The notes beneath the pieces were generated by a model. It ran no database searches. It was not told the DNA's origin and was given only the letters and a program-made list of their open reading frames with translations. Below, in pieces: positions 1 to 20,955 of a stretch of 20,955 nucleotides of DNA (the first letter of the stretch is position 1; each line of letters begins with the position of its first letter). This DNA is from Larix sibirica. Its lineage: Eukaryota > Streptophyta > Pinopsida > Pinales > Pinaceae. A program made the translations under genes and the position numbers. The stretch spans positions 10,029 to 30,983 of the forward strand of contig NWUY0300000815.1 in assembly GCA_004151065.3 (NCBI GenBank), given 5' to 3'.

Positions 1-154
1 TTGGATCCAATATTTTTCTTTTGGTGCTCTTCTTTCTCTGGAAATATGATCAACATAGGTGGAGGCTTCATATCCATACAAGGATTTGAAGGGGGACATG
101 CCAATAGACATGTGATAATAAGTGTTGTAGCAGAATTCACCCAAATCTAGCCAT

Positions 155-520
155 CTAATCCAAGTCTATAACATAGTTTTTGAGATATCCTTCCAGCCAC
201 TGATTGGCCCTCTCAATTTTCCCATAAACTTGATGGTGGTAGCTTCTACTAATATCCAAATATGTTCCCACCAATTTAAACAATTCTTTCCAAAAATCAC
301 TAGTGAAGTTACTGTCTCTATCACTGACTATTTTTTTTGGAAACCCATGTAATCTAAACACTTCTTTAAAGAAAAGATAAGTAATTTGAGCTTCTAAACT
401 AGTTGATGGAACAAAAAATGAGTGCGCAAATTTAGTAAGTCTATCTACTACAAAAAAATATAGTCTTTTCATTGTACTTTGGGAAGACCAGTGATGAAAT
501 CCATGGAGATGCTTTCCCAC
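155..520 (-). pseudogene. Integrase catalytic core, copy 1 (decayed)
   Basis: This is the rve-type integrase core, which joins retroelement cDNA to host DNA. The three acidic residues are recognisable: Asp in VVDRLTKFAH, Asp in IVSDRDSNF, and Glu in GKIERANQW. The segment lies in a different frame from the rest of Gag-Pol because of a one-base shift at a run of seven A's (452-458). Just before that run the main frame has a TGA (469-471) after a normal-looking integrase start region. Past about position 165 toward 1 the family-like reading continues in another frame (LGEFCYN, SIGMSPF), so copy 1 keeps a slightly better text there than copy 2. The C-terminal part lies outside the window. Confidence 0.85.
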
Positions 521-717
521 TGCTGCTCCGGAATTGGTGGTGGTTGTAGTATCCTAGCTAGATGTATGTGCTAAATTTTATTCTATTTGCATGTGTTTCA
601 CTCTCTCACATGCTTCAACACATCCATATCGAGGCGCTTCCATGAGAGCCTCTCTCTAACTTTCCCGTAAGTCTTCAAGTAACCAGGATGTACTGCCAAG
701 GGTGAATCATGGGAAAC

Positions 718-1503
718 TTAAAAAATATTCTTCTTCAAAGTTGATCCTGGCACCAAATAGACTTTTTCTTTGTAATAGATGACTCCATATAACACTTTGT
801 ACAAATCATCTCGAATCAAGCCATCTAATACTTCACATGCAAATTTATTTTTAGAGTACTCTACTGCTAACTGAGCCTTCCAATCAACAAGAAATTCCAT
901 TGAAGTAAGGGACAATCTCCTAGAAAGAGAATCTGCCACTACATTCATCTTACCCTTCTTGTACTCTATGTCAAAATCATGGGATTGAATTTTACTCACT
1001 AATTTTTTATGCCTATCATTGAGCTCCGTCTGTGTCAGAAAATGCCTTAGATTGTTTTGATCAATCTTGACAACAAACTTACTCCCCACCAAGTACTGTC
1101 GAAACATTCCCAATGCATGCATAATGGAAAACATTTATTTATCATAAATGGAGTAGTTCCTTTCATGTGGCTACAACTTTCTACTCTCAAAATCTATAGG
1201 GTGCCTATTCTGCATCAAAACTTCTCCAATGCCTTCACTAGATGCATCACACTCAAGCACAAATGGTTGAGTGAAATTGGGTAAGGAAAGGACCAAGAAG
1301 CTACTCATCACTTCCTTCATTTTTTTGAAGGCCTTCTCATCATCCTCACACCAACAAAAAGCTTCCTTATTTGTAAGGTCAATCAAAGATGCTTTCAATT
1401 GAGAGAATCGCTTGAAAAGTTTTCTATAGTAATTGCAGATCCCAATGAATCCTCTCAATTCAGTTACAATCTTGGGGCTTCGCCAAGCAAGAATAGTTTT
1501 CAT
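718..1503 (-). pseudogene. RT connection and RNase H domain, copy 1 (decayed)
   Basis: This covers the RT thumb/connection (motif ELRGFIGICNYYRK) and the RNase H domain, which degrades RNA in the RNA:DNA hybrid. Visible RNase H features are the first Asp in VLECDASSEG, a later Asp in KIDQNNLRHF and the last Asp in VVADSLSRR. In-frame stops lie at 1171-1173 and 1135-1137. The second falls where the family has the conserved catalytic Glu (after YDK), so the domain would be inactive even with readthrough. The residue before the first Asp is Cys here and Arg in copy 2, one of the few differences between the copies (position 1252). The frame is the same as gag and RT. Confidence 0.85.
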
Positions 1504-1560
1504 CTTCTACATGTGGACATTTAAACCCTCTTCTCCAATCACATGGCCAAGGTGCAAGAG

Positions 1561-2190
1561 CTACTTCATTCCAAACTCACATTTGAACAACTTTGCATAC
1601 AGTGATTGTTCTACAAAAATTGTTAGTACATCATCCAAATGTTGCAAGTGTTCATCCCAAGTCTTGCTATAAATCCGAATCTCATCAAAAAATAATAACA
1701 CATACTGATGGAGATTCTTACTGAAAACTCTATTCATGCAATATTGAAATGTAGATGGATCATTAGTCAAGCCAAAGGGCATGAGTAAAAACTCAAAATG
1801 TCCATAGTGGCAGCGGAAAGCTGTCTTCTGAATGTCTTCCTCCCTCATCCTGATTTGATGGTAACCAGAATGAAGGTATTTCTTGGAAAATAATTTGTCC
1901 CTATATAGCTCATCCATTAGCTCATCAATTCTTTGGATTGGGTACTAGTTCTTAATGGTCCTCTTGTTTAGAGCCCAGTAATCTATGCACATCCTTAGTG
2001 TGTCAGCTTTCTTCTTCACTAGAACTACTGAGGAAGCAAAAGGACTTGGACTTGGCTTGATGAGTCCCATTTCAATAAGTTCCTTAATAGACCTATTGAT
2101 TTCATCCTTGGAATTCTTGGGGTGCTTATAGGTTCAATTCATGATGGGTTGAGTTCCCACCTCTAACTAAATCACATTCTCCACTCCTCT
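1561..2190 (-). pseudogene. Reverse transcriptase, copy 1 (decayed)
   Basis: RT fingers and palm are clear: SPFASSVVLVKKK, CIDYWALNKR, SGYHQIRM, KTAFRCHYGHFEF, LMPFGLTN and LYAKLFKCEF, in family order. In-frame stops lie at 2167-2169, 2134-2136, 1945-1947 and 1561-1563. The palm motif before SGYHQIR has Tyr in place of its catalytic Asp, and the FxDD-type box reads FFDEI, with Glu for the second Asp. The polymerase is therefore dead at the residue level as well as by nonsense. The sequence looks base-for-base identical to 13703-14332. Confidence 0.9.
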
Positions 2191-2478
2191 ATGTGGTGGT
2201 CTACCATGAAGAAGGTCTCCAAAAAAATTCTCATGTTTTTTTAGTAGCCTCTTGATGTCCTTCGGATGTTGTGATACATCAATGGTGATGCCTTGAGTGG
2301 TGATGAGGCATTCAGCAACCCAATCAATGTCTCCATGCCTCAAAATTGACCTCATACTATGTGAGGAAACCACTTGATTTGGATAAGTGTTGATACCTTG
2401 CAAATCGATCTGCTTTCCATCCAAATCTTGGAATCATATTTGGGGAACTTTATAATTCACAAAATGCTCCCCAATGGA

Positions 2479-2910
2479 TTACAACCAATGCACTCCCAAC
2501 GTCACATTAGTATCAGCCACATTCACCGCATAAAAGTTGTCTGTCAAGGTATAGTCTCCTATGGTCACTTGCATCTTTGGAATCCACCTAGTACATCCCA
2601 TGGAGTTATTGCCAGGTATGATGACTGTGAAACCTTCAAAAGTTTCAATAGGAAACTTCCTTCTTTCGACCAAGGATGCATCAATGAAATTATGGGTAGC
2701 ACCTCCATCCACCAAAACTGAAACCTTCTGTCCTTGGAACACTCTCTTGAATCTAAGAGTGTGGAAACGAGGCACTCCTACCAAGATTGCAATCTTTCCA
2801 CTTGCTAGTGGCAGTTTCTCTTCATTTGCAATCTCATATTCACCATCAAATTCAACTAGATCCTCCTCATATTTCTCCTTAGCTTCGCTCTCTAAGAACA
2901 TCTCAATTTA
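2479..2910 (-). pseudogene. Retropepsin-type protease, copy 1
   Basis: The aspartic protease would cut the Gag-Pol polyprotein. The active-site region reads VLVDGGATHNFID, where D[ST]GA is typical; a Gly in the second position is frequent in this plant lineage. The following text to GVHWL fits the family. A stop at 2479-2481 ends the open stretch and one at 2908-2910 precedes it, both in the common Gag-Pol frame. The domain itself has no internal stop and its catalytic Asp is intact. It is identical to 14621-15052. Confidence 0.85.
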
Positions 2911-2991
2911 AAGTGCCTTTCCTTTACATTTGTGGCCTACAACCCATGGTTCTTGGTAAGTGAAACATTACTTTCTCCTCCTCAATTCATC

Positions 2992-4176
2992 TCAATATTT
3001 GGAATTGTAATCCTTCTCTAAGGTGCCAGTCAAATTACTCAAGGGATTCCTTTGAATATTGAACTTGGTAGGCATAGGATCCTTAGGAGGAAATCTAGTC
3101 CTTGGGATGGCATCTTGTAAATCTCTAGTTCTTCTCATTGAATCCCACCGACAATATGGTCTATAGGATTTGACCAACCCCTTCAATGGTTTTGCTAATC
3201 CTTCTATGAATAAGACGATCAAGTGAGCTTCTGATATATCACTAACCATTACAGCTAGCTTCTGGAACTTAGAAATATAGGCCTCGGGACTTCTCGATTG
3301 TCTCATATGCACTAGCTCCCTGAAGGATATCTTAGGATCCTTCCAATCAAACCTCTCTGTCAACCTCATTGTGAAATCCTCATAGGTTGACACCTGATCA
3401 TGCCCCAATGTTTTCATACCATGGAACCACCAATCATTTGCTTCTCCCTCAAGATGCAAGGTTGCCATTTTGATGGCATCCTTTTCAATCATGGGATTCA
3501 ATCAAAAATAGGTATCTAATTTCTGGATCCATGCACTGGCAGTACACTTGGATGAACCATTGAAGTATGGGAGAGATATCTTAACAATAAAATTCCTTAG
3601 ATCAAAATTCTGTGCATCCATCATGTTTCCCCCTCTTGGATGGTTTTTGTATTGAGCTTCACATAAATCCTTAAATGGAAAATCTCTTTCTCAATCTTCA
3701 CTCAAAGTTTGATACTCTGCATAGCGATCCTCCCATGTAGCAATGGATTCACTCTGCACTCTTGGTTCCTCTTTATTCTCTTCGGTGAACTTGGGAATGG
3801 TATGTCTTGTCTGACCCTTGATATGACTTTTGAATTCATGGGGACTATTGTGGGGTCCTTTTTAAAAAAATAGAGTCTCCCCAAATACCTTCTTCCCTTC
3901 ATGTTGGTATCCATTGCCACTCCCTTTTCCATCTTTGTTTACCAATCGCTTGGCAAGGAATTCTCGAGTCTCTTGAACCAAATTGATGATGTTTTGAGAT
4001 ATGTCTTGCAGGAATTTAAGAATGCTCTGAACAAAGTACATGATATATTCTCTTTCATCCATTTTAGACATATATTTGTCCCCTTGAAGCTTTCCTTCTG
4101 CGGAATCGACCTCATCTTCAACAAGACATTCTTCTGGACCTTTCCCTTTGGGAGGGGGAATTCTCTTATGACTCAT
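2992..4176 (-). pseudogene. Gag (capsid-type) region, copy 1 (decayed)
   Basis: Gag would form the virus-like particle. The Retrotrans_gag core is recognisable in 3501-2992 (HLEGEANDWWF, RLTERFDW, FRELVHMRQ, YISKFQKLA). Reading in the same frame upstream gives a likely start ATG at 4176, only 33 nt after the PBS. In-frame stops lie at 3862-3864, 3691-3693, 3502-3504 and 2992-2994; no frameshift is needed to read through. A nucleocapsid zinc knuckle follows at 2926-2967, preceded by a stop at 2968-2970 and with its second Cys changed to Tyr. Confidence 0.85.
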
Positions 4177-4209
4177 GAAAGATAATCAAGAGAAGGTTCA
4201 TAGGACCAT

Positions 4210-4221
4210 GCTATGATACCA
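4210..4221 (-). other. Primer binding site, copy 1 (tRNA-iMet type)
   Basis: The minus strand reads TGGTATCATAGC, one mismatch from the usual initiator-Met PBS TGGTATCAGAGC of plant gypsy elements. One base separates it from the LTR terminus (…TTACA on the minus strand). It marks 4223 as the LTR edge and shows that a 5' LTR should follow, but only 8 bp of it is present before the N. Confidence 0.85.
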
Positions 4222-4230
4222 CTGTAATAT

Positions 4231-4231
4231 N
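4231..4231. other. Single N, likely contig join
   Basis: One N sits between the LTR start tgtaatat and an unrelated, CpG-rich sequence. The N at 16373 follows the same eight bases, and there the true LTR continues. This looks like an assembly join, not biology. Confidence 0.8.
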
Positions 4232-4740
4232 TAAACGTTGGTCAATTAATGGTGTAAACGTTATACATGGGATCGCGCACATGTTTTAGCGCATATGCAT
4301 TGATGGCATGTACGCGCTACAAACACGCGTGTGCGCATATATTTGTGTACGCATTAATAACGTGTGAGAGCACATTTTGTCCATGTCAACTCACCAATGT
4401 GGACGATAAGCACTGTCGAACCAGGGGCGTGTACGTGTGTTTGAATGCGCGTGCATGCCCTTGGTTTTTTTCCGCTTGCGCTCTTCCATTGTGGCCTTTT
4501 TTGGTACCATATTTTTGCGGGTACCTAGATGCTACTATCCATGATGGTTTTCTTGCATCTCGAATTATTCATTTCATAGTATTTGTGAATATATATCACT
4601 TTTCTAACCCACATTTTTATGATAAATCCATGTCATATGATTTGATTGAACATATTCTTGAGAATTTTACCCTACAAAAATTTACCCTTTTAGTTGCAGT
4701 CTAGTTGTTCAGAAGTCTAGCAAAAATAGTTTTCAATTTT
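4232..4740. other. CpG-rich segment with alternating purine-pyrimidine runs
   Basis: This stretch holds many CpG sites (for example gatcgcgcac, acacgcgtgtgcgcat, atgcgcgtgcatgc) in a window that is otherwise CpG-poor. It opens with a direct repeat taaacgtt at 4232-4239 and 4254-4261. An open frame spans 4267-4704 on the plus strand, but its Cys-rich translation resembles no family I know and it is probably chance. No gene is supported. Confidence 0.5.
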
Positions 4741-4789
4741 TTTTAAGGATTTCAAGGTGGTTTTTAAACCCCCCTCTCCCCAAAACAAG

Positions 4790-5060
4790 TCATGAGAATT
4801 GAACTTGAGGTGCTTTTTTTACAACCACCTCTAAAAGTTCAATTCCTATGAATTTTTTTTGGGAGAGGGGTTGGTTTACAACCACCTCTAAAGTTCAATT
4901 CTTATAACTTTTTTTTGGGGGGGGAGTCATTTTTTTGGAAATCCCCCCTAAAAGACATGAAAATTTAACTTTTGGAGGTGTTTTTTTTATGAAAATTGAA
5001 CTTTTGGAGGTGTTTGTTTGTACAACCACTACTAAAAGGAAAATTTTCATGATATTTTTT
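4790..5060. repeat. Cluster of direct and inverted copies of a ~24 bp motif
   Basis: The motif acaaccacctctaaaagttc(aattc) occurs at 4821-4845 and, one base shorter, at 4878-4901. Its reverse complement, of form gaaaattgaacttttggagg(tg), occurs at 4959-4980 and 4991-5012, with weaker copies near 4793-4811 (inverted) and 5021-5050 (direct). Long T and G homopolymers separate the units. Opposed copies could fold into hairpins, so this may be the remnant of a foldback or MITE-like element, but I see no target-site duplication. Confidence 0.6.
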
Positions 5061-6788
5061 TCGGGGGAAAGGGAGGTGAGGTTTGAAAATGCCAACCTAG
5101 AATATCTATTTTTAAGGCATTTTTTTGGCACCCCCTAAAAGTCAAAATGAAGCATGATAATTCAAAATTCATGGTCATGGGATATTTTCATTTTCATTCA
5201 CCTCCATCCCACACTTGGCCTTTTCATACTAACTATTTTTCAAGAGTTTTTTATTGGTTCAATCCCTATTCAAGGATCATATAGGGATGGTCAACGCACC
5301 TATTGAGCCTCTCTGGCCTTCATTACCTCTATGAATTGTTTTCAGGATTCACAGAACACACAAGTATGTAGTGGTGTCTTTGTGGATCCCTAGTTCCTAT
5401 GTCATTACTAGAGTGCGTGAAAAAAAAGGAAGCTTAAATCATTGCAAGAGAATCAACACCGATTAGAGAACTACAAGGTTCAAAACATATTTGAGGTTGG
5501 TTCTATAATATTTTTCTAATGGTTGAATCTGTCATTGTTTATAGAGTACCATTAAATGACCACATATTTCCATAATTAACACATTTTTGTGATACATACA
5601 AGCTCACTTCTCAAACCTCCTTTTCGTGTTTTCTAGTTTTTCCAAGATTCCATTGGTTTCATCTCTTCCATTGGTTTTTGTTCCAACCTTCCAGGTTAAC
5701 TCTCTTAATCATCAATGAGAATTCATTTTTTTAGGCCTTATGTTTGTTAGGGCTACAAACATTTGTGTCAATGAAAATTCCATGGGATTTTAGTCTTGCA
5801 TAGTGAATTCCCATCTGATGATTCCAAAAAAAGGAGCTAAACAAATATGAATCCCTACACCTACAACCAACCATTTTATTAATTTTGTCTATACAATTCT
5901 ACACTAAGTTTTGCCTCTAGGATTTCTCTTGATCTCTCTTTATTGATCCTAATTCACCTACTACCATTAGTATCTCACAAATATATATATAAGGAGAATA
6001 AGGAAACAACCTAAGTACCTTCGAACCACATATTCAAATGGTTGGAAACCTTCACACTCATTACACTTAGATATTTTTGATAAATTGCAAATTTAACATT
6101 CATGACACTATAAATGCATATAAAGGATTTGATTGACATGTCACCATGCATATATCAAGTCCACATGCTCGAAAGTTCCCACGGGTTATTTAAAAAATGT
6201 CTCCACGTTGATTAAAAATGCCTCCTCCAACTTAAAACCCAATTCTTAGTATTGAAACATAGTGCAAACCAACCAAAGAATGCATGTTAAACAGTAAAAC
6301 CTCTTAAACATTTTCCACATGGAATCCAAAGGTACCTAACTGAAGTATTCCTTAACATGTTAGATAGGTATTTTTTTACATGCAGGGTTCAATAAAATGA
6401 CACCAACAATCATTTTTTTGAAATTGTAAATATATGTATCTTACATAGAAAGGCCTTTCGTAAGGCCTCGATTATGCGTAACTGTTATGCCGAGACTTTA
6501 AGTCAAACATCTTTGTTGCAAATTTATTTGGATATGAATTGTGAATCCAATATTGACTCCATAATTCAATTAAATTGATAATATGCTTTGGATAGGGTAG
6601 CTTGATTGAAGTTTGGAATTTATATTTGAATATGAAATTTATTGTGGTTTCATTATTGCAAACATAGATAATGTATAATTAACATTTCTGCTTGTGGAAA
6701 CTAATTTACATAGTAGTGTAAATATCGTTTGGTTTTGTATCTCTTGCTTCCTAAGTTTATCTTGCTCTTTAGTTTGGGTGGGATAATT
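5061..6788. other. AT-rich intergenic DNA, nothing recognised
   Basis: There is no open frame of interest, no RNA gene and no mobile-element motif. Minor items are an ATATATATAT run near 5972-5981 and a short palindrome aggcctttcgtaaggcct at about 6451-6468. It ends at the N at 6789. Confidence 0.6.
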
Positions 6789-6789
6789 N
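6789..6789. other. Single N, likely contig join
   Basis: The sequence texture changes here, from AT-rich spacer before the N to a more balanced, coding-like composition after it. This is consistent with an assembly join of two different pieces. Confidence 0.6.
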
Positions 6790-7510
6790 CCATCGATCGA
6801 AATAACTAGTTTCTGCGGGTCAAAGCATATGTCTCTTCGTTTGGTCTAGTAAGCTTATCTGCGTCAAAGTGAATTATAGCTGCTCCTCGTTCAATTCTTC
6901 ATGGTGGGGATAAATCTCCCAATTATCTAGATAGAAAAGGGCCGGCTTCATCAATAAGCTCTTTTATGCCTCAACTTGGTTATATGCCCCGGCATCAATT
7001 GCGGGATGCTAGGACTATATTGATCCCCATTCTTAAGTAATAATCCCTGCTGTACCAATAGAGGTGGGATAGGTTGATGTGTGGGCAGATAAGATTGCGG
7101 AACCAACTGAGATATCTGAACGAGCAGAACTATAGTTACCATTATAGAATTAATTTATTGCTCGGGTGGACCAGAATTAAATTTACTTACTTATTTCCTA
7201 TTATATATTCAATAACGAAAGGGAAATTGTTCTTATCTATATCTTAAGATACATAAATGTAAAGCTAGAAAGAAAGCGAGTGAGAATGTAATGCGGAGCC
7301 GTTAGAGGGGCTTCTGGTCGACCTAAAGATCCTATTCGTTTGGACTTCAGATTTATAAGAACCTTAAGAGAGAGTGCCACTTACTTTTTATTCCTTCTAA
7401 GTTCAGAAATAGAGGCTCTGCCCATCTCACCCACCCATACATATAGGGGACTTCATTTTACGCAATTTGCAGTTTACCCAATTAAGCCAGAGAAGTATAT
7501 CTTGTAAAAG
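6790..7510 (+). other. Unidentified block with two stop-free stretches; possibly organelle-derived
   Basis: This block is visibly richer in G and C than its flanks. On the plus strand, 6873-7037 is free of stops for 55 codons, including the text SPNYLDRKGPASSISSF and LGYMPRHQLRDARTILIPIL. A second stretch, 7292-7504, is open for 71 codons without a start Met, including GRPKDPIRLDFRFIRTL and PISPTHTYRGLHFTQFAVY. I do not recognise either product. Composition and texture (for example agaaagaaagcgagtgag) suggest an organelle insertion (NUMT or NUPT), but no known organelle gene is evident. Old transposon or host exon sequence is also possible. Confidence 0.3.
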
Positions 7511-7514
7511 GGGA

Positions 7515-7870
7515 TTTGAATAGTTTCAATCCTCAATCTCACTATTTGATATGAAATTCAGTTAGTATTCAAACATTTTGCAACAATAATATCCTATCCT
7601 CAAATTAAGTATTTTCTATCATACTAAGTTAGTATTCAAACATTTTGCAACAATAATATTAATGAAGTAATGATAAGGATAAAACATAGATATCAACGAA
7701 TGTGTTCTAATTTAATTTTGGATAAAAAATAAAAGGAAACATTTCAATCCTCAATCTAACTTTTGTCTATGACATTAATTAGTATTTAACCATTTTGTTA
7801 CACTAATCATTAATTGAATGATCATAAAGATAAGGCATAGACAACAAGCAATGTGTTACTTCTCATTTAG
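7515..7870. repeat. Nested local duplications
   Basis: A 32-bp sequence starting gttagtattcaaacattttg is exactly repeated at 7561-7592 and 7628-7659. A diverged third copy lies near 7783-7815, with matching downstream text (…aaggcatagacaacaagc…aatgtgtta) that parallels 7660-7710. The tract tttcaatcctcaatct also occurs twice (about 7522 and 7743). This fits successive small tandem duplications in non-coding DNA. Confidence 0.65.
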
Positions 7871-9030
7871 TTTGGCATATAATTTTATTATTAATATCAT
7901 TTCTCTTTTCGGAGATTCTGAAACAAAGTGAAAAAGTGATTGACAAATTGATTGCATTCAAAGATTATAAATTCAAACAACAAAGCTAATTGTAAATGAA
8001 TTGTTTTAATTTGGCTAAACAATAAGTTTGTGACCTTAGTAGTCCCACAAACTATTTAACAAATTTAGACCAAAACATGAAATTAATTTATTGTTTCTTT
8101 AATACAACAAACTCATGTTCCTTCATCTAATAAATAGCTCATAAAAATGTACTATATATCTTTCCAAAAAATGACATATGCAATACATTTTGTAACGAGA
8201 AAAATTAACCGTAAAATGAAGGGCAGTGAAAAGATTTAAGTGTAATCAAATTTTCATTTGACCGGTAAAGTAAAAGTGAAATTCAAAGCCTGAATCCATA
8301 CAAGATAGAGATGAAAAAACCACATCTAACACAAACTATATTTTATTTGTCTTTGAAACACACAAATCTGACCTCTAATTTGCAATCATAGAATCAAGAA
8401 TATAACTAGAATTATAAGAAATATTAATATACAAAATTATGAAAGAAACAAGGCTCTACACAACTGGGGCATTCAAAGATACACTGCCAGTTGGGTTGTT
8501 TATCTTCTTAATCTTTTTGTAATTTCAATTCATGCCATACATTTATGAGGTAAAATAACCAAATTCATTATAGTGTTGCATGCACTAGATTAATTATTTT
8601 ATCCTACGAAATATGTGTCATACATTGTCCGGTCCTTTGAGGTGTCTTATGATCAATCAAATTTTAATAGAGTTATATTTAAAGATTTGAGGATTATACC
8701 AAATCACTATGTGAAAGCTACATGTAGGTGGTAGCTAAATAGCATATGTCATATTTGAGCTAGTTGTACAACAAGTAATCATAGTCTATTACTTGGAATA
8801 TTTTGAGAAGCAAAAACAAGAGATATGGTTCATCATGGTCTGCATGATGAACTAATCGACGGCTTGATAATTATGCTAACTTGGTATCATATCCACATGT
8901 TTGAAAATACATTTGAACCACGTGTGACTTCTTTTCAATAAATCTAGTAAAACCCATTTCATTAATTCCATAGTTTTTCCAAACCAATCCCCTTCAAAAA
9001 TAGGTCAAAAGCAACCTTTATAATTTCCAA
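7871..9030. other. AT-rich intergenic DNA, nothing recognised
   Basis: There is no supportable gene, RNA or element on either strand. Only short AT-rich motifs are present. Confidence 0.6.
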
Positions 9031-9245
9031 AAACAACCTTTCTAAAGTGCAAAATGGAGTTCCAAAAGTGCCAATATAGGGTCTCAAAACTGCACTTTTG
9101 GGTTTGAAATTAGCACTTTTGGAACTGGATTTTCACTTTTTGCACCCAATACTAACACTTTTCGAACTGATTTTTGTGCTTTTGAAAGTTGATATTGGTA
9201 CTTTCAGAATTAGGTTTTCACTTTCCAAAATCAAGATAGGCATTT
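9031..9245. repeat. Degenerate repeat field built on 'gcacttttggaact'
   Basis: Variants of the motif gcacttttggaact(g) recur about every 25-40 bp (9092, 9113, about 9160, about 9180, about 9200). One copy is inverted: 9058-9071 is the exact 14-bp reverse complement of 9113-9126. It is probably a decayed minisatellite. No coding potential is supported. Confidence 0.5.
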
Positions 9246-9560
9246 TTAGAATCTGATTGTTCACATTTTAATTTAGATACTAACAATGATTTGCTCTTTA
9301 TAAACCCCAATCTTGGGATTTGTAAATTTTCAATACCATTTAGCAAAATACTATTCAAAAATTTTAAAGTTGGTAACATATCACTAAAAATATCCTTCAA
9401 AAAATCAAACACAACTAGATAACAATACCACATATAGAGTCACTAAAACAAAAATTGGATTTGAGTCATATTTACCGTCAGATTTTAGTGTAATTTTTTC
9501 CCAATTTTGGTGAACAATCCGACAATAAACCTAGTGCTATTGTACAATTTCGTAAAGTGA

Positions 9561-9749
9561 CAAATTTTGCATCCCTTTTTGCATCCTTTCTTAATTCCAA
9601 TTTTGCATCCAATTTTGCAGCCAAATTTTTGCATCCTTTTTTGCATCTTTTTTTGCACCCTTCTTTGCACCCAATTTAACATCTAGTATTGCATACTTTG
9701 TTAGTACATCATTGTTTGCACCCATTTTTGCACCTAGTTTTTCATCCAA
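9561..9749. repeat. Degenerate 12-bp minisatellite (aattttgcatcc), left part
   Basis: Units close to aattttgcatcc / tttttgcaccc recur with a period of roughly 12 bp from about 9561 to the insertion point of the retrotransposon. The same repeat resumes at 18201, after the element and its target-site duplication, so it was one field before insertion. The period is a multiple of three, which creates an apparent minus-strand open frame rich in Cys, Lys and Gln at 9485-9682; I regard that as an artefact of the repeat. Confidence 0.75.
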
Positions 9750-9754
9750 TGTTG
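9750..9754. repeat. Target-site duplication TGTTG (left)
   Basis: These five bases, tgttg, directly before the LTR terminus tgtaat are repeated exactly at 18196-18200 after the other LTR. Five bp is the usual target-site duplication of Ty3/gypsy integrases. Confidence 0.9.
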
Positions 9755-11597
9755 TGTAATATCCCCAATCAGATTTATGGAGATATTAACTCAATTAGAA
9801 AGGACCAAGTCAAAAAAATTAAAAAGCTAGTAGCTAGAATTAAACTAGAATTGACAGAACTAGTGTTAAGCACAATTAGACCTCCCAAATTATTCACAAG
9901 GTGGACCTGAGGATATGACAAGGATGCAATTAATATGAACAATGGGCCAATACTTTGGAAGTGGCACATTTATGGGTGCTTCACGCCTGGGAATATTTCC
10001 TTGGCAGAGCCAAGGCTATCAATACGCATTCCTCGAGCACTTCTATGGAAACCCAAGGCTTCTATGCTCACTCAAAGTAATAATACCTGTGGTAGACTAT
10101 ATGGAATGTTTCCACCCTAATACACTAGTAATACCAATGTTTAGAAGCAATTTCACAGGGTTTGGAGACCAAACAAGTAAGTGCACTACCCATGACTACT
10201 CAACTAGTTAACTTCCAGACTTTTGCAAATGATCGTAGAGGGTCATAATTCATGAATTAAGGTTGGGGATGGATTCAATAGAGTCATAAGAATATGCAGT
10301 AACTTACAAACTAATAAATGGACTCACAAAAAAAAAATTAAAACAACTTCTATAAAACTTGTCAAGTTTTTAGGCATAGGGCACAAGCCTTGAAAAAGAG
10401 AAATACAAACAACCTAAGGGGATCACGAATTCTTTCTCAGAAATATCACATGAACTCAAATACATATAAATGAATAGAATCAATCTCCTTTATAATTTTA
10501 TAGCAGCATTTTAAATCATTTAGGATCCAAACTTAATAGATAGTTCTCAATCTTTGAGATTTTACAAGATAGGAGCATAAATCTTAAATATGAGAAGGAG
10601 GAGAAGAGATGGAACCATTGTATTAGAGACATAGGAAGAATATGATCATATGTATGCTCATGAAAGGAATAAAAACATTTAATGTATCTCACAAGGGGCG
10701 CAATCACTCCAACTGCTTTCTTCAATGGATGAATCTCATGACACTTTCACATCAATCTTGCATTAATCTTTGCACCAACTTTGGAGGCTCGAATCATTAT
10801 GGATGTTGGATGAATCATACCTACAACTCAGAATATAATGGATGCATTGGAACTATGAATAATACTAGAACAATTTTGCTATGGGGCACATCACGCAAAG
10901 CTGGCTAGGGGCTCATCTCCCAAGTGTCTAAGAAGCGAAGCTCTTAGGACAAATATCGAGAGTGACAAAATAAGTGCACTGGGGCACACCACCTTCCTTT
11001 ATAGAATGAACTATTCTTGAATATACATCACATGTGGTCATTGAAATCACTAATGTACCCTCATTGACTTCTATTGGCATATTCAACTTTTACCTTCTTT
11101 TTTCCTTGCTTTGTTGCCTTTCCGCTTTAGACTAATTTTCTACTTTTGCAACATCTTGCTTTTCTTGGTTTTTCTATGCTTTCCTTCTTTTCCTATACTT
11201 TTTCTTGCATTTCTACTTCTTTATGCTTTTATGTACTTTCCTACCTTTCTACATGCTTTCTTCTTTTCGAAGTTTCCTTCTTTTGTGCCTCCTTCCATCT
11301 TTTTATTGTCTTTGTCTATTTTTCTTATTTTCATCTAATTTCCATTGTGTATGACAACTCATAGGGTCCACAAGACCACTTATGCACCCCCCAGGCCACC
11401 TAGGAATATCACTCAACAAAAAATTAAATAATTACAAAAATAATCATGGCAGAATATCCTAAGTCTTAAAAATTAATTATATCGATAATTAATGCCTAAA
11501 AAAATTAAGCCCTTCCTTATTAAATTTTTATGCCAAAATCTATAGGGTTTGAAGATGTAGTACAATGACTTTAGAGCCTCAGGTATGGAACATTACA
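9755..11597 (-). repeat. 3' LTR
   Basis: This LTR is 1843 bp, with plus-strand ends tgtaatatcccc…ggaacattaca. It aligns over its length with 16365-18195: shared text includes the first ~150 bp, the pyrimidine-rich tract (11092-11330 against 17690-17930) and the end segment gaagatgtagta. The PPT lies directly outside it at 11598. The several open frames within it on either strand are not supported as genes. Confidence 0.92.
11092..11335 (+). repeat. Pyrimidine-rich tract inside the 3' LTR
   Basis: About 240 bp of mostly T and C, with few purines, built from loosely repeated ttctatgctttcct-like units. On the element's own strand it is polypurine. The equivalent lies at 17690-17935 in the other LTR. 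Lack of purines removes stop codons and yields a 75-codon hydrophobic open frame in both LTRs (11111-11338 and 17708-17935), antisense to the element. Confidence 0.7.
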
Positions 11598-11827
11598 GTC
11601 CTCCCCACCCAAAATTGCTTATCCTTAATATGTTGTAGTCTTGGATGGTGCAATGCTTGCGCATTCTCCCAAGTGGCATCTTCATTGGGTAGGACTTTCC
11701 ACAAAGCTAGATACTCCTTAATAATCATATTCCACAACTTCCTTTCTCTTGTTTGCAGAATTATTTTTGATACCAAGATTAGTTGTCCTTCATCATCTAG
11801 TGGTGGAATTTCTACTGACATTGTCAC
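11579..11827 (-). pseudogene. Integrase C-terminal chromodomain segment
   Basis: The text IKEYLALWKVLPNEDATWEN matches the chromodomain that follows integrase in chromoviruses and is thought to guide insertion through histone marks. Aromatic positions (Tyr, Trp, Trp) of the expected fold are present. It is preceded by PPLDDEGQLILV, also typical of the family. A stop at 11828-11830 separates it from the rest of integrase in the same frame. The open frame ends inside the 3' LTR, so the PPT doubles as coding sequence (FWVGRT). Confidence 0.8.
11598..11612 (-). other. Polypurine tract
   Basis: The minus strand reads TTGGGTGGGGAGGAC immediately next to the LTR start TGTAATG. A purine-rich run in this position primes plus-strand DNA synthesis. 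Confidence 0.85.
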
Positions 11828-11887
11828 CTACTTCCCAACTTCTTTCTTAATACATGAGACATGAAATACATAGTGTATTTTTCTACC

Positions 11888-12157
11888 TTAAATTGGAAGA
11901 TCCAATTCATAAGCAGTTTCTCCTACCTTCCACACAACTCTGTAAGGACCATAGAACCTTGGATTTAAATTTTCAGCCTCTTTACCTTTCAAGGATGATT
12001 TCTCGTATGGTTGTATCCTCAAATATACTAGATCATCCACTTGGAAGATACGCTCAGCTGCGCTCCTATCTGCATACATTTTCTATTGATTTTAAGCAGT
12101 CTAGAAGTTGTCCTGGAGTGCCTCCAAAATATTGGGACTTTCTTGGATCCAATATCA
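11888..12157 (-). pseudogene. Integrase C-terminal domain with GPY/F motif (decayed)
   Basis: The segment RFYGPYRVVWKVGETAYEL carries the GPY/F motif of gypsy integrases, which helps DNA binding and multimerisation. The preceding DDLVYLRIQPY is also typical. In-frame stops lie at 11888-11890, three between about 12086 and 12106 (upstream of MYADRS), and 12155-12157. Beyond the first stop the same frame continues with VFHVSCIKK, another family hallmark. Confidence 0.85.
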
Positions 12158-12299
12158 TGCCTTTGGTGCTCTAAAATATCCAAATATCTGATCAACATAG
12201 GTGGAGGCATCATATCCATACAAGGATTTGAAGGGGGACATGCCAATAGACATGTGATAGGTAGTATTGTAGCAGAATTCACCCAAATGCAAAAGTTTT

Positions 12300-12662
12300 T
12301 TATTTCCCTATAACATAGTTTTTGAGATATCCTTCCAGCCACTGATTGGCCCTCTCAATTTTCCCATAAACTTGATGGTGGTAGCTTCTACTAATATCCA
12401 AATATGTTCCCACCAATTTAAACAATTCTTTCCAAAAATCACTAGTGAAGTTACTGTCTCTATCACTGACTATTTTTTTTGGAAACCCATGTAATCTAAA
12501 CACTTCTTTAAAGAAAAGATAAGTAATTTGAGCTTCTAAACTAGTTGATGGAACAAAAAATGAGTGCGCAAATTTAGTAAGTCTATCTACTACAAAAAAA
12601 TATAGTCTTTTCATTGTACTTTGGGAAGACCAGTGATGAAGTCCATTGAAATGCTGTCCCAC
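12300..12662 (-). pseudogene. Integrase catalytic core, copy 2 (decayed)
   Basis: The translation equals copy 1 apart from its ends: acidic residues in VVDRLTKFAH, IVSDRDSNF and GKIERANQW are retained. The frame differs by one from gag-RT because of an extra base in the run of seven A's at 12594-12600. In the main frame the start of the core (SMDFITGLP) is intact and is followed by a TGA at 12611-12613. At 12148-12307 this copy differs from copy 1 by roughly a fifth of bases, in clusters. Confidence 0.85.
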
Positions 12663-12699
12663 TGCTGCTCCGGAATTGGTGGTGGTTGTAGTATCCTAG

Positions 12700-12862
12700 C
12701 TAGATGTATGTGCTAAATTTTATTCTATTTGCATGTGTTTCACTCTCTCACATGCTTCAACACATCCATATCGAGGCGCTTCCATGAGAGCCTCTCTCTA
12801 ACTTTCCCGTAAGTCTTCAAGTAACCAGGATGTACTGCCAAGGGTGAATCATGGGAAACTTA
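12700..12862 (-). pseudogene. Integrase N-terminal HHCC zinc-finger region (decayed)
   Basis: In the main frame the text HDSPLAVHPGYLKTYGK supplies both His ligands, and NTC supplies the second Cys. The first Cys of the HHCC finger is replaced by TGA (12740-12742). More stops follow at 12725 and 12713, and one precedes it at 12860. The stretch LQPPPIPEQQWDSISM leads into the catalytic core. The equivalent in copy 1 is 558-720. Confidence 0.8.
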
Positions 12863-13645
12863 AAAAATATTCTTCTTCAAAGTTGATCCTGGCACCAAAT
12901 AGACTTTTTCTTTGTAATAGATGACTCCATATAACACTTTGTACAAATCATCTCGAATCAAGCCATCTAATACTTCACATGCAAATTTATTTTTAGAGTA
13001 CTCTATTACTAACTGAACTTTCCAATCAACAGGAAATTCCATTGAAGTAAGGGACAATCTCCTAGAAAGAGAATCTGCCACTACATTCATCTTACCCTTC
13101 TTGTACTCTATGTCAAAATCATGGGATTGAATTTTACTCACTAATTTTTTATGCCTATCATTGAGCTCCGTCTGTGTCAGAAAATGCCTTAGATTGTTTT
13201 GATCAATCTTGACAACAAACTTACTCCCCACCAAGTACTGTCGAAACATTCCCAATGCATGCATAATGGAAAACATTTATTTATCATAAATGGAGTAGTT
13301 CCTTTCATGTGGCTACAACTTTCTACTCTCAAAATCTATAGGGTGCCTATTCTGCATCAAAACTTCTCCAATGCCTTCACTAGATGCATCACGCTCAAGC
13401 ACAAATGGTTGAGTGAAATTGGGTAAGGAAAGGACCAAGAAGCTACTCATCACTTCCTTCATTTTTTTGAAGGCCTTCTCATCATCCTCACACCAACAAA
13501 AAGCTTCCTTATTTGTAAGGTCAATCAAAGATGCTTTCAATTGAGAGAATCGCTTGAAAAGTTTTCTATAGTAATTGCAGATCCCAATGAATCCTCTCAA
13601 TTCAGTTACAATCTTGGGGCTTCGCCAAGCAAGAATAGTTTTCAT
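12860..13645 (-). pseudogene. RT connection and RNase H domain, copy 2 (decayed)
   Basis: The text is the same as copy 1 with a few substitutions: Arg replaces Cys just before the first catalytic Asp (ERDASSEG, codon 13388-13390), and changes cluster around 13004-13035. Stops lie at 13313-13315 and 13277-13279, the latter at the expected catalytic Glu. Downstream text (PVDWK, ACEVLDGLI, VIYYKEKVYLVPGS) is the linker between RNase H and integrase typical of this lineage. Confidence 0.85.
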
Positions 13646-13702
13646 CTTCTACATGTGGACATTTAAACCCTCTTCTCCAATCACATGGCCAAGGTGCAAG
13701 AG

Positions 13703-14332
13703 CTACTTCATTCCAAACTCACATTTGAACAACTTTGCATACAGTGATTGTTCTACAAAAATTGTTAGTACATCATCCAAATGTTGCAAGTGTTCATCCC
13801 AAGTCTTGCTATAAATCCGAATCTCATCAAAAAATAATAACACATACTGATGGAGATTCTTACTGAAAACTCTATTCATGCAATATTGAAATGTAGATGG
13901 ATCATTAGTCAAGCCAAAGGGCATGAGTAAAAACTCAAAATGTCCATAGTGGCAGCGGAAAGCTGTCTTCTGAATGTCTTCCTCCCTCATCCTGATTTGA
14001 TGGTAACCAGAATGAAGGTATTTCTTGGAAAATAATTTGTCCCTATATAGCTCATCCATTAGCTCATCAATTCTTTGGATTGGGTACTAGTTCTTAATGG
14101 TCCTCTTGTTTAGAGCCCAGTAATCTATGCACATCCTTAGTGTGTCAGCTTTCTTCTTCACTAGAACTACTGAGGAAGCAAAAGGACTTGGACTTGGCTT
14201 GATGAGTCCCATTTCAATAAGTTCCTTAATAGACCTATTGATTTCATCCTTGGAATTCTTGGGGTGCTTATAGGTTCAATTCATGATGGGTTGAGTTCCC
14301 ACCTCTAACTAAATCACATTCTCCACTCCTCT
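13703..14332 (-). pseudogene. Reverse transcriptase, copy 2 (decayed)
   Basis: Fingers and palm motifs appear in order. The first catalytic Asp is Tyr (codon 14018-14020) and the FxDD box is FFDEI (Glu at codon 13823-13825). Stops lie at 14309, 14276, 14087 and 13703. CIDYWALNKR has Trp where the family has Arg, and LHSGYHQIR has His for Arg; both fit CpG-to-TpG or CpA decay. Confidence 0.9.
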
Positions 14333-14620
14333 ATGTGGTGGTCTACCATGAAGAAGGTCTCCAAAAAAATTCTCATGTTTTTTTAGTAGCCTCTTGATGT
14401 CCTTCGGATGTTGTGATACATCAATGGTGATGCCTTGAGTGGTGATGAGGCATTCAGCAACCCAATCAATGTCTCCATGCCTCAAAATTGACCTCATACT
14501 ATGTGAGGAAACCACTTGATTTGGATAAGTGTTGATACCTTGCAAATCGATCTGCTTTCCATCCAAATCTTGGAATCATATTTGGGGAACTTTATAATTC
14601 ACAAAATGCTCCCCAATGGA

Positions 14621-15052
14621 TTACAACCAATGCACTCCCAACGTCACATTAGTATCAGCCACATTCACCGCATAAAAGTTGTCTGTCAAGGTATAGTCTC
14701 CTATGGTCACTTGCATCTTTGGAATCCACCTAGTACATCCCATGGAGTTATTGCCAGGTATGATGACTGTGAAACCTTCAAAAGTTTCAATAGGAAACTT
14801 CCTTCTTTCGACCAAGGATGCATCAATGAAATTATGGGTAGCACCTCCATCCACCAAAACTGAAACCTTCTGTCCTTGGAACACTCTCTTGAATCTAAGA
14901 GTGTGGAAACGAGGCACTCCTACCAAGATTGCAATCTTTCCACTTGCTAGTGGCAGTTTCTCTTCATTTGCAATCTCATATTCACCATCAAATTCAACTA
15001 GATCCTCCTCATATTTCTCCTTAGCTTCGCTCTCTAAGAACATCTCAATTTA
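14621..15052 (-). pseudogene. Retropepsin-type protease, copy 2
   Basis: The active-site text VLVDGGATHNFID keeps the catalytic Asp, and the domain has no internal stop between 15050 and 14623. It is the least damaged domain of the polyprotein. It is identical to copy 1. Confidence 0.85.
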
Positions 15053-15067
15053 AAGTGCCTTTCCTTT

Positions 15068-15109
15068 ACATTTGTGGCCTACAACCCATGGTTCTTGGTA
15101 AGTGAAACA
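15068..15109 (-). pseudogene. Gag zinc knuckle (one Cys lost)
   Basis: The text CFTYQEPWVVGHKC is a CCHC-type nucleocapsid knuckle of the spacing found in plant chromoviruses, but its second Cys is Tyr (TAC, a single base from TGC). A TAA lies directly before it (15110-15112). RNA binding by this finger would be lost. Confidence 0.7.
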
Positions 15110-15133
15110 TTACTTTCTCCTCCTCAATTCATC

Positions 15134-16318
15134 TCAATATTTGGAATTGTAATCCTTCTCTAAGGTGCCAGTCAAATTACTCAAGGGATTCCTTTGAATA
15201 TTGAACTTGGTAGGCATAGGATCCTTAGGAGGAAATCTAGTCCTTGGGATGGCATCTTGTAAATCTCTAGTTCTTCTCATTGAATCCCACCGACAATATG
15301 GTCTATAGGATTTGACCAACCCCTTCAATGGTTTTGCTAATCCTTCTATGAATAAGACGATCAAGTGAGCTTCTGATATATCACTAACCATTACAGCTAG
15401 CTTCTGGAACTTAGAAATATAGGCCTCGGGACTTCTCGATTGTCTCATATGCACTAGCTCCCTGAAGGATATCTTAGGATCCTTCCAATCAAACCTCTCT
15501 GTCAACCTCATTGTGAAATCCTCATAGGTTGACACCTGATCATGCCCCAATGTTTTCATACCATGGAACCACCAATCATTTGCTTCTCCCTCAAGATGCA
15601 AGGTTGCCATTTTGATGGCATCCTTTTCAATCATGGGATTCAATCAAAAATAGGTATCTAATTTCTGGATCCATGCACTGGCAGTACACTTGGATGAACC
15701 ATTGAAGTATGGGAGAGATATCTTAACAATAAAATTCCTTAGATCAAAATTCTGTGCATCCATCATGTTTCCCCCTCTTGGATGGTTTTTGTATTGAGCT
15801 TCACATAAATCCTTAAATGGAAAATCTCTTTCTCAATCTTCACTCAAAGTTTGATACTCTGCATAGCGATCCTCCCATGTAGCAATGGATTCACTCTGCA
15901 CTCTTGGTTCCTCTTTATTCTCTTCGGTGAACTTGGGAATGGTATGTCTTGTCTGACCCTTGATATGACTTTTGAATTCATGGGGACTATTGTGGGGTCC
16001 TTTTTAAAAAAATAGAGTCTCCCCAAATACCTTCTTCCCTTCATGTTGGTATCCATTGCCACTCCCTTTTCCATCTTTGTTTACCAATCGCTTGGCAAGG
16101 AATTCTCGAGTCTCTTGAACCAAATTGATGATGTTTTGAGATATGTCTTGCAGGAATTTAAGAATGCTCTGAACAAAGTACATGATATATTCTCTTTCAT
16201 CCATTTTAGACATATATTTGTCCCCTTGAAGCTTTCCTTCTGCGGAATCGACCTCATCTTCAACAAGACATTCTTCTGGACCTTTCCCTTTGGGAGGGGG
16301 AATTCTCTTATGACTCAT
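15134..16318 (-). pseudogene. Gag (capsid-type) region, copy 2 (decayed)
   Basis: The Retrotrans_gag core is HLEGEANDWWF through YISKFQKLA. Upstream in the same frame are a charged N-terminal segment (MSHKRIPPPKGKGPEE…) and the text SLPYFNGSSKC, typical of the region before the core. Stops lie at 16004, 15833, 15644 and 15134. It is identical to copy 1 by eye. The ATG at 16316-16318 is chosen because it is the first after the PBS and in frame with everything downstream. Confidence 0.85.
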
Positions 16319-16351
16319 GAAAGATAATCAAGAGAAGGTTCATAGGACCAT

Positions 16352-16363
16352 GCTATGATACCA
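16352..16363 (-). other. Primer binding site, copy 2 (tRNA-iMet type)
   Basis: The minus strand reads TGGTATCATAGC, separated by one base from the 5' LTR end. One mismatch from the usual initiator-Met PBS. Confidence 0.9.
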
Positions 16364-16364
16364 C

Positions 16365-18195
16365 TGTAATATNCCCCAATCATATTTATGGATATATTAA
16401 CTCAATTGCAAAAGACCAATTAAAAAAAATTAAAAAACTAGTAGCTAGAATTAAACTACAATTGACAGAACTAGTATTAAGCACAATTAGACCTCCCAAA
16501 TTCTTCCCAATATGGAACTAAGTATATGATAAGGCTGAAATTAATATGACAAATAGGACAATACTTTTACAATGGCACATTTATGGGTTCTTAACACCTA
16601 GGAATATTTCCTTGGCAGAGTCAAGGCTATCAATGCACATTCCCCAAGGACTTCTATGGAAAATGAAGGCTTCTGGTGTTCAGTGAAAGTTATAAGACAT
16701 GTGGTAGACTATATGGAATGTACCCACCTTGATACAACATTAATACCAAGTTTTAGAAGCAAATTTATATGGTTTGGAGTCCAAACAAGCAAGTGCACTA
16801 CCTAGGACTACTCGACTAGTTCACTTCCAGACTTTTCCAAATTCCCTCAGAGGGTCACGAATTCATGAATTAAGGATGGGGATGGATTCAAAATATTCTT
16901 TATAATATTTATTAACTTACAAACTGAGAAATGGACTCACATACAACATTTTATAACAATTTCTGTAAAACTAGTCAATTTTCAAGGCATAGGGAGCAAG
17001 CCTTGAAAAAGAGAAATAGAAAAGACCTCATGGGATCATGAATTATTTCTAGGAACTTCCACATGAACTGAAATACATGTAAATGAACAAAAAAAAATCC
17101 ATTATAATTTTATAGCAGCATTTGAAAGTATTCATGACCCAAACTTATCATATAGTTCTTAATCTTTGAGATTTTACAAGATAGGAGTAGAAATATTCAA
17201 TAGGAGAAGGAGGATAATTGCTGGAACCAATGGATCAGATCCATAGGAAGATGATGATAATATGGATTATCATGTAAGGAACCCAAAAATTTAATGTATC
17301 TCACAAGGGGAAAAATCACTCCAAATGCTCTCTTCTTTGGATGAATATCATCACACTTTCACATCAATCTAACATTAATCTCTACACCAATTCTAGAGGA
17401 TCGAATTATTCTAGATGTGGGATGAATAATACCTAAAAATCAGACTCTAATGGATTCACTCAAAATATGAAGAAGACTTGAACAAGTTTTCTATGGGGCA
17501 CATCACTGAAAGCTGGCTAGGGGTGCATATCCCAAGCCTCTAAGAAGCAAATATCTGAAGGACAAAATATGTGCACTGGGGAAAACCAAATTCCTTTATA
17601 GAATGAATGAGTGTTCAAAATACATCGAATGTGGTCATCCAACTCACTAATGTGCTCTCATTAACTGCTTTTGGTAACTTCATCTTTTACCTTCCTTTTT
17701 CCCAGCTTTGTTGCCTTTCCACTTTAGAGTGATTTTATTCTTTGGCAACTTCTTGCTTTTCCTGGATTATCTTTTATTTCTTGATTTTCCTATGATTTTT
17801 CCTACTTTTATGCTTCTTTCTTGTTTTATGTACTTTCTTGGATTTTTGCATGCTTTCTGCTTTTCAATGTTGCCTTCTTTTGTGTTGCCTTCCATATTTT
17901 TAGTGGCTTTGTGGATTTTTCTAATTTTCTTCTAATTGCCATTGTGGATGACAACTCATCGGGTCCACAAGATCACTTATGCGCCCTCCTTGGCCACCTA
18001 GGAACATCACTCAACACATAATTAAATAATAACAAAAATAATCATGGAACACTATCCTAAGTCTTAAAAGTTAATTATCTTGACAATTAGTGCGTCAAAA
18101 ACTTAACCAATTCCGTATTAATTTTTAATGCCAGAATCTATAGGTGTTGAAGATGTAGTAGAATGAGCATAGAGCCTTAGGGAGGGGACATTGCA
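16365..18195 (-). repeat. 5' LTR
   Basis: This LTR is 1831 bp, with plus-strand ends tgtaatat(N)ccccaat…ggggacattgca. It is homologous to 9755-11597 with numerous substitutions and small indels. It contains an N at 16373 where the other LTR has no extra base, so the N probably replaces nothing. Its T/C-rich tract is at 17690-17935. Confidence 0.92.
16373..16373. other. Single N, likely contig join
   Basis: It sits at the same point, eight bases into the LTR, as the N at 4231 in copy 1. The undamaged LTR at 9755 reads tgtaatatcccc with no intervening base. Confidence 0.8.
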
Positions 18196-18200
18196 TGTTG
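18196..18200. repeat. Target-site duplication TGTTG (right)
   Basis: Exact match to 9750-9754; it marks the end of the element. Confidence 0.9.
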
Positions 18201-18272
18201 TGTCGAATTTTGCACCTAGTTTTACATTTCGTTTTACATCAAGTTTTGTGCCTCATTTTGCATCCAATTATG
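18201..18272. repeat. Degenerate 12-bp minisatellite, right part
   Basis: Continuation of the field interrupted by the retrotransposon, with units such as gaattttgcacc, gttttacatcaa and cattttgcatcc at about 12-bp spacing. Confidence 0.7.
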
Positions 18273-19191
18273 TCACAACCCCAAATTTACGCAATTTTAA
18301 TTTTTTATATATAATTATGTTGATGACATTAATTCTTATGTCGCAAGTTTGTAAAACAATAAGGATTTTGTTCGACTCAGCATCACTTGTCTATAAGGTA
18401 TAAATTGAATTTCAGTATTCTATGCGTCACATAATTACTGATGCAGTTTGGGGAATAAAGTGTCATCCTTATAATGACGACTACATGTTTTTATTACACT
18501 CATGATTGACTCCACTACTGTATTGAATGATTACAGTTTATAATTTTATTTCATACATCTTAACTTGTGAACCTGGTAATATCATTATTATGGTTCTAGC
18601 TTAATGGCCAAGCCATGGCCAACCCTAAGCTATCAACTTACCACTACTTATACTATGGTAATAATAATTCCATGATACATTATAAATAAAAACTTGTTAT
18701 TTTATTAACCTATATGAGGATTATGTCGAAGGTCTAACTTATGGTATTGCTACCATAGTAGACCCCATCCATGATTTGTAACTATATAAGTTTCCATAAC
18801 TTATAAAATATGTACAAATCCTATTTATTATGATCATCGATCTTCTTATTAACATAACCATAGCAACTTGTAAACTATGCACCATCCCTATGCGTATATA
18901 TATAAGTCAAATCATATTCCCGTGTGTCGTATCAAGACTATATGGAAATCGTAATGTTGGTTATGATATCTATGCTATGATGATAGTTTAACTTTGGTTC
19001 TTATGTGTTGTATAGTATAACCATTAAATCTCTATACTGTATTTGATTACGATTTCATTAATTAATGCTGCGATTTTCTTTGGCTTTGGAAGAACCACAA
19101 CGAGGTGCCAACACATATATAGTTTGGTAGAGCCATGTGATGGAATTTATATAGGTCAGTTGTACCAACCTGGACCTGTACGTGGATTTCT
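18273..19191. other. AT-rich intergenic DNA, nothing recognised
   Basis: No gene, RNA or element supported. It begins with tgtcacaacccc, which resembles some LTR termini, but no matching terminus or PBS follows. A small palindrome, ggccaagccatggcc, lies near 18607-18621. Confidence 0.5.
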
Positions 19192-19344
19192 ATGCATCGT
19201 CAAGATTTATTTCTTGAGATTGTAACCGATCTTTCCATTGTATTGTTGAGCAAGGTCGCTTGTTCAACCATTTGTTTCTTCGCAGCACAGGGTTATGCTG
19301 CTGCGTTGAAGAGCTCGGCTTTGCGCAGAGCTTACCCTGGTTAA
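19192..19344 (+). CDS. Small open frame of 50 codons, hypothetical
   Basis: ATG at 19192 opens a frame ending in TAA at 19342-19344. The product has a hydrophobic middle (LSIVLLSKVACSTICFFAA) and an Ala/Arg/Ser-rich end (GYAAALKSSALRRAYPG). Local composition is less AT-rich than the flanks. The same text holds a good splice acceptor (tttgtttcttcgcag, ending 19285), so it could instead be an exon, and a donor-like aaaag|gtaagc follows at about 19391. I do not recognise the product; it may be chance. Confidence 0.2.
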   Translation: MHRQDLFLEIVTDLSIVLLSKVACSTICFFAAQGYAAALKSSALRRAYPG

Positions 19345-19399
19345 TAATTTTTTTGCGAGTGATAGCACACTATTAATGACATTGATATAAAAGGTAAGC

Positions 19400-19900
19400 T
19401 ACTATGACCTCCTCATGGAGTGTACGTAGTGCTTAACGAGCGATTTCCCTCCAGTTGCAATATCATTTTGTTTCAAATTGCCTTTGTAATCTTATTTAGC
19501 TCTGTAATGTGTCAAAGCTTGACTCTGCATTTTCAAAGCTTGTCTCTATGTTTTGTTTGTATATACTTCACGAGGATTTTCCATTCAGTATGCAAAATTA
19601 GAGTGTTTATGATTTGACTCTGTAAATAGCTTGGTTCTATGCTTTAACTCTGTAGATCGTATTCACTTGGATTTGTAGTTTAAATGCTTGACTCTGTATT
19701 TTAGCTCAACAAGATAAACTGGTTTGGTTGTTGTGCTTTGGAGTTTGACTATGAAGTTATCATTAATGAGTTCTAGAGCATCGTGGTTCTTCCAACGAAG
19801 CTCTCAAGAAATTTTTGCTTGCGCACTGGTTCTTGTTATCAATTTTTGTGTAAACCAGTAAGGTTACTAAAGCCTTGGATACCACCAGGGTTTGCATATG
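19400..19900 (+). other. T-rich, intron-like sequence
   Basis: The sequence carries loosely repeated phrases (agcttgactctg, gcttggttctatgc, tttgactctgtaaa) and the T-rich texture of plant introns or untranslated leaders. A degenerate duplication pairs 19784-19832 with 19896-19935 (ggttcttccaa…tttttgctt). It may lie in the 5' part of the candidate gene that follows. Confidence 0.35.
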
Positions 19901-20140
19901 GTTCTTCCAATGATGTTTTTGCTTCGCAAGATTCCTGGAAAATGGTAAGGGTTCGGCTCTCTGTTGAAAGTTTTAAAATCATTTTGGTAGTGTTTAAATA
20001 TTGTATACATATTGATTCTAACAAAATCCATTTAATCTTTTGTGTAGGTGTTTCGAAGAATCCTGTAGGGTTCAAAATACTGAAGTATTACTACCTAAAC
20101 TTAATGGTCGACGCGAAAGAGAGGCTACACAAATAATATA

Positions 20141-20516
20141 ATGGATTGGTTCGCTTCCTTAACCGACGTCTATGACTTCCAAAGGTAAACTACAAACCTC
20201 CTTTTGTAAGGGTTTAACATATATTTCTTTTCGAGTTTATCTATTAAAAGGTTTTAATGTTTGGTTATTCCAATCTTCGTTCACAACCCTAACCGTATTT
20301 ATTTTGGTTGTCTTGCAAGTGGTCACATGGATGCAACCGCATCGTTCTTGATCCAGGTAGATTCTTGTTACTTATTTATGCCATGGTGAAAATTCTAATA
20401 GCATACTCCATATTCGAAATTTGTCCATGGCATGAATAATGATTTTCCTATGTTTACTATTTACATGATTCGCATAGGCTGAGGAAACCATACAAATTCT
20501 TTCAGAGTTACTTTAA
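20141..20516 (+). CDS. Candidate spliced gene (exons 20141-20184, 20320-20356, 20478-20516)
   Basis: ATG at 20141 starts MDWFASLTDVYDFQ. A donor (aaag|gtaaac) ends the exon at 20184. The first intron (135 nt) has a good branch sequence (ccctaacc), a T-rich tract and an acceptor ttgcaag ending at 20319. The second exon continues in frame as SGHMDATASFLIQ to 20356; the next intron (gtagat…cgcatag, 121 nt) joins in phase to AEETIQILSELL and TAA at 20514-20516. The joined product is 39 residues, mildly amphipathic, and unknown to me. A further well-formed intron upstream (19945-20047, with tgattctaac branch and tttgtgtag acceptor) suggests 5' exons. The stop may be real, or the end of a decayed or longer gene. 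Splicing is predicted by eye only. Confidence 0.3.
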
Positions 20517-20882: not shown

Positions 20883-20916
<34 letters not shown>

Positions 20917-20955
20917 ATATGTATACATATATATGTACATATATATATGTGTGTG
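20883..20955. repeat. Compound TA/TG microsatellite
   Basis: Runs of (ta)n, (tg)n, then alternating tatg/tacat units to the window end. Such tracts are unstable in length and adopt non-B structures readily. Confidence 0.95.

Follow-up and report, generated by a model that had tools for sequence, protein, structure and literature searches.

Collapsed and duplicated repeat contigs, in which the same repeat stands in two places between different flanks, have been described for SAMBA (PMC8849508) and, in the available part of its report, for the Pinus taeda v2.0 mega-reads (PMC5437942). SAMBA duplicates repeats deliberately where long reads span them (PMC8849508). According to the same part of the Pinus taeda report, super-reads of distinct repeat copies can merge into a chimeric mega-read, and such merges seldom occur and are very unlikely to persist in the assembly (PMC5437942), a statement that counts against the explanation we favor below. 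In the window analyzed here, a stretch of 20,955 bases from Larix sibirica, one retrotransposon interior is found twice, and the features on which the comparison rests are as follows.

1..165, minus strand: integrase sequence to the left of copy 1, homologous but diverged; 1-146 is 87% identical to 12143-12288
166..4230, minus strand: copy 1 of the retrotransposon interior, from part of the integrase to the putative primer-binding site (PBS) plus 8 LTR bases; 10 of 4065 positions differ from 12308-16372
4231: single N, a join without LTR continuation; 15 of the 60 bases to its right match the LTR
6789: single N, the third apparent join in the window
9750..9754, plus strand: left target-site duplication (TSD), TGTTG
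9755..11597, minus strand: 3' LTR (TG...CA), 82.6% identical to 16365-18195
11579..11827, minus strand: weak chromodomain-like ORF piece (Pfam Chromo, E 1.1e-4, 22.5 bits)
12308..16372, minus strand: copy 2 of the interior, with integrase, RNase H, RT, protease and gag pieces, the PBS and 8 LTR bases
16365..18195, minus strand: 5' LTR, broken by the N at 16373
16373: single added N with no counterpart in the other LTR, at a join backed by LTR and TSD; 53 of 60 bases match
18196..18200, plus strand: right target-site duplication, TGTTG

The two copies run at a constant offset of 12142, and the exact count of 10 differences bears out the original prediction of about ten. In copy 1 numbering, the mismatches are at positions 499, 505, 508 and 514, at 864, 866, 875, 877 and 890, and at 1251; they form two tight groups and one single, all about 1.1 kb or less from the left edge. 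The stretch predicted to be clean, 1253-4230, is mismatch-free already from 1252, leaving 2979 identical bases up to the N. Both copies terminate in TGTAATAT, the opening eight bases of an LTR that reads TGTAATATCCCC at 9755-9766, and a single N follows in each; the claim that both halt eight bases into the LTR at an N was correct to the base. Among the ORF pieces of at least 80 amino acids on the minus strand of the repeat, seven of eight share their coordinates between the copies at this offset, the exception being the piece at the left edge.

Copy 2 is inside a complete Ty3/gypsy LTR retrotransposon that occupies 9755-18195 on the minus strand. Its paired TG...CA LTRs are bordered on both sides by the 5-bp duplication TGTTG. 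On the minus strand, matches to Retrotrans_gag (E 1.5e-11), RVP_2 (1.9e-10), RVT_1 (7.2e-19), RT_RNaseH_2 (1.3e-13), rve and Chromo follow one another in this order, so that an RT of the RVT_1 family precedes RNase H, as in Ty3/gypsy elements, and the integrase lies downstream of both. The rve match (E 2.6e-5, 24.9 bits) is under its curated cutoff of 32.6, and the weak Chromo match, which adjoins the 3' LTR, is likewise below its own (22.5 bits versus 25.1); the element is probably of the chromovirus type. For the integrase, a search at E up to 1e-3 gave 338 relatives, and the best 120 of these include 88 with PF00665 as well as a Taxus chinensis protein with 55% identity. Among the best 120 of 1362 RT relatives, the closest is 72% identical, and two (65% and 66%) carry names beginning with PITA_, which we take to be the prefix for Pinus taeda. 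For gag, 25 relatives were found. One base off the LTR, TGGTATCATAGC on the minus strand is a candidate PBS, presumably of the initiator-tRNA (tRNA-Met) kind that it resembles. The element looks dead, because its coding region is split into short ORF pieces. Short TTTTGCACC/TTTGCATCC-like repeats flank it at 9562-9754 and 18200-18260, which is consistent with insertion of the element into an array of such repeats.

In a global alignment, the two LTRs of this element are 82.6% identical (81.9% by BLAST), with mismatches in 317 of 1827 ungapped columns, or 17.4%. These mismatches are unclustered (59 adjacent pairs versus 54.8 expected). Of the 317, 106 are transitions and 211 transversions; this proportion departs strongly from one to one (P = 4e-9) and is what substitution with no preference for any kind of change would give. 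As plant LTRs decay, they usually become rich in transitions, and by that standard this pair is unusually poor in them. Should the shortage of transitions stem from assembly rather than mutation, dating the element by its LTRs would be uncertain as well.

Single Ns stand at 4231, 6789 and 16373, and the window has no others. We infer that every one of them marks a join, the case being best supported at 16373. If so, the contigs are 1-4230 (perhaps longer leftward), 4232-6788, 6790-16372 and 16374-20955, and each repeat forms the right-hand part of a contig of its own. At 16373, the second LTR reads TGTAATAT, N, CCCC where the first reads TGTAATATCCCC, with no base missing; the N is thus an added letter relative to the first LTR and marks a join, not an unread base. 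The claim that the LTR goes on after one N only was confirmed by comparing the 60 bases to the right of each, since 53 match the LTR after 16373 and 15, which is chance level, after 4231. Given the LTR continuation, the matching TSD and the absence of a missing base, the join at 16373 is probably right. The right end of copy 1 is suspect, since nothing comparable backs the join at 4231. A suffix/prefix overlap of 4-200 bases above 80% identity was found across none of the three Ns.

Next to the N at 6789, the region 6789-7500 had appeared organelle-like by eye, and this impression was unsupported: a search of 6700-7700 against Rfam at E up to 1 was empty, and the G+C content of 6501-7500 (0.34-0.38) is unremarkable. 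The window as a whole had no Rfam match at gathering thresholds, and ARAGORN, run with the bacterial code, found no tRNA in it. A direct repeat of about 65-135 bases in three diverged copies occupies 7524-7882.

The left edge of the match is of another kind, as neither copy has an N there (165/166 and 12307/12308). To the left of 166 the homology goes on in an unchanged register: 1-146 and 12143-12288 are 87% identical, and at 147-165 only 4 of 19 bases match. A tblastn search with relatives runs on across 1-165, in another frame. By HSP arithmetic, about 11 nucleotides relative to the integrase relative P0044 are lacking from each copy at its left edge, at neighboring but different places. 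The 87% homology, the 4 of 19 matches and the absence of an N argue that each left flank is a diverged family member that passes directly into near-identical sequence. Between 1-165 and 12143-12307, the offset stays constant although two patches, at about 31-46 and 147-165, give a better alignment when mutually cancelling gaps are allowed.

How much weight the clean stretch can bear depends on how the differences are counted. With all 10 taken as independent, a clean stretch of 2979 bases has P = 2.5e-5, and none of 200,000 random placements was as tightly grouped as the observed positions. With two groups and one single counted as three events, a gap of that size has P = 0.075 anywhere and P = 0.019 in the right-hand tail, so the stretch is only suggestive as evidence. 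The four differences of the 499-514 group all fall at third codon positions in the frame matching relatives, three being silent and one an E/D exchange; for this reason the group resembles a patch contributed by a diverged member of the family. The five differences at 864-890 show no such third-position restriction. Transitions account for 8 of the 10 interior differences, which is an ordinary evolutionary pattern and fits a real duplication equally well. The spacings of the groups, 333, 350 and 361 bases, were weighed as a trace of tile length, and these are three intervals only.

We consider an assembly artefact, in which one collapsed repeat was traversed by two contigs that both ended at its fork, the best explanation, with a probability of about 0.72. 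The window would then hold one old, complete and decayed Ty3/gypsy element (9755-18195) and part of a family relative (1-4230). The assembler may have collapsed much of the family's interior and written it a single time. The contigs 1-4230 and 6790-16372 would have entered this stretch, each from its own left flank and each retaining a few copy-specific variants near that flank. Both would then have carried one consensus rightward to the first fork that the assembler left unresolved, which we would place eight bases into the LTR. The scaffolder would have joined each contig to its right-hand neighbor with an estimated gap of 0 or less, presumably writing one N. A single n is how some scaffolders record a gap of zero or an overlap between contigs. 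No statement of this one-N convention was found in the literature searched; passages in PMC5368935, PMC3158087, PMC8110574 and PMC4177539 deal with overlapping contigs or gaps of negative size and do not mention it.

Three observations lead us to favor the artefact: the contrast between the LTRs (317 of 1827) and the interior (10 of 4065), the 13% divergence to the left of the repeat, and the unsupported join at 4231. An old element should have a near-identical partner for its interior only through recent copying, whether real or artificial. An apparent join lies at the breakpoint of both copies (N 4231 and N 16373), as the artefact predicts; a real recent duplication or conversion likewise predicts contig breaks at the boundary of identity, and this agreement counts against reading the joins as proof of an artefact. 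The original prediction had taken the coincidence of an N with each breakpoint as a point against a real duplication. That argument is weak, since a true near-identity of 4 kb stops contigs there too: short-read contigs would break at the exact end of real identity, and the coincidence of the Ns therefore separates nothing.

Real copying is the alternative that survives best, and we regard it as unlikely but far from negligible: a recent gene conversion or duplication would have copied about 4 kb of interior between members 12 kb apart and left the LTRs diverged. Its left edge lies within homologous sequence (1-146, 87%), as the edges of conversion tracts do, its right edge is the end of homology, and a real repeat would itself cause the contig breaks at these places; the 8 transitions among the 10 differences also suit it. 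Two features speak against it, namely, that the right side of copy 1 is joined through an N only, with no LTR match, and that the differences come in patches instead of being evenly spread (P = 2.5e-5 if independent, 0.075 as three events). Its narrower version, a genuine conversion tract of at least 4 kb that homogenized two decayed gypsy interiors lying 12 kb from each other and ended where the LTR begins, seems to us a shade less likely again. If such a conversion did take place, LTR divergence can badly misdate the interiors of elements.

The original prediction had proposed one contig placed twice in the scaffold. Of this, an assembly artefact still stands as the best reading, whereas the mechanism gives way before the 10 differences and the lack of an N at the left edge. 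In its strict form, a single contig of about 4 kb set twice, the proposal is improbable. It draws on the 2979 identical bases that reach the same N in both places, but the copies differ at 10 positions and neither left edge carries an N, so that verbatim placement, with identity to the letter and a join on either side, is not what we found. The strict form fits only a shorter unit that starts at 1252 or later and was merged leftward without a gap. Two independent recent insertions of one near-identical dead element are very improbable: plant LTR elements often reach high copy numbers, and seven of the eight ORF pieces match in coordinates between the copies, yet a recent insertion should have near-identical LTRs, those of the element around copy 2 differ by 17.4%, and in copy 1 no LTR follows the PBS. 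Tandem duplication of a 12-kb unit was rejected, as the sequence that follows copy 1 does not recur after copy 2 in a self-comparison of the window at E up to 1e-5.

Under the collapsed-repeat reading, the locus serves as a warning that the reuse of repeats in drafts of repeat-rich plant genomes can shape element counts, ages and apparent conversions, and single Ns beside LTR boundaries may flag such reuse. The element itself is like plant Ty3/gypsy chromoviruses in the order gag, protease, RT, RNase H and integrase, in its TG...CA LTRs, in its 5-bp TSD and, less surely, in its weak chromodomain-like piece, and unlike them in being decayed and in the low share of transitions among its LTR differences. 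With chimeric or duplicated repeat contigs, the pair would have in common that patches may derive from different copies. A duplication of the SAMBA type, unlike the artefact proposed here, would make both copies real.
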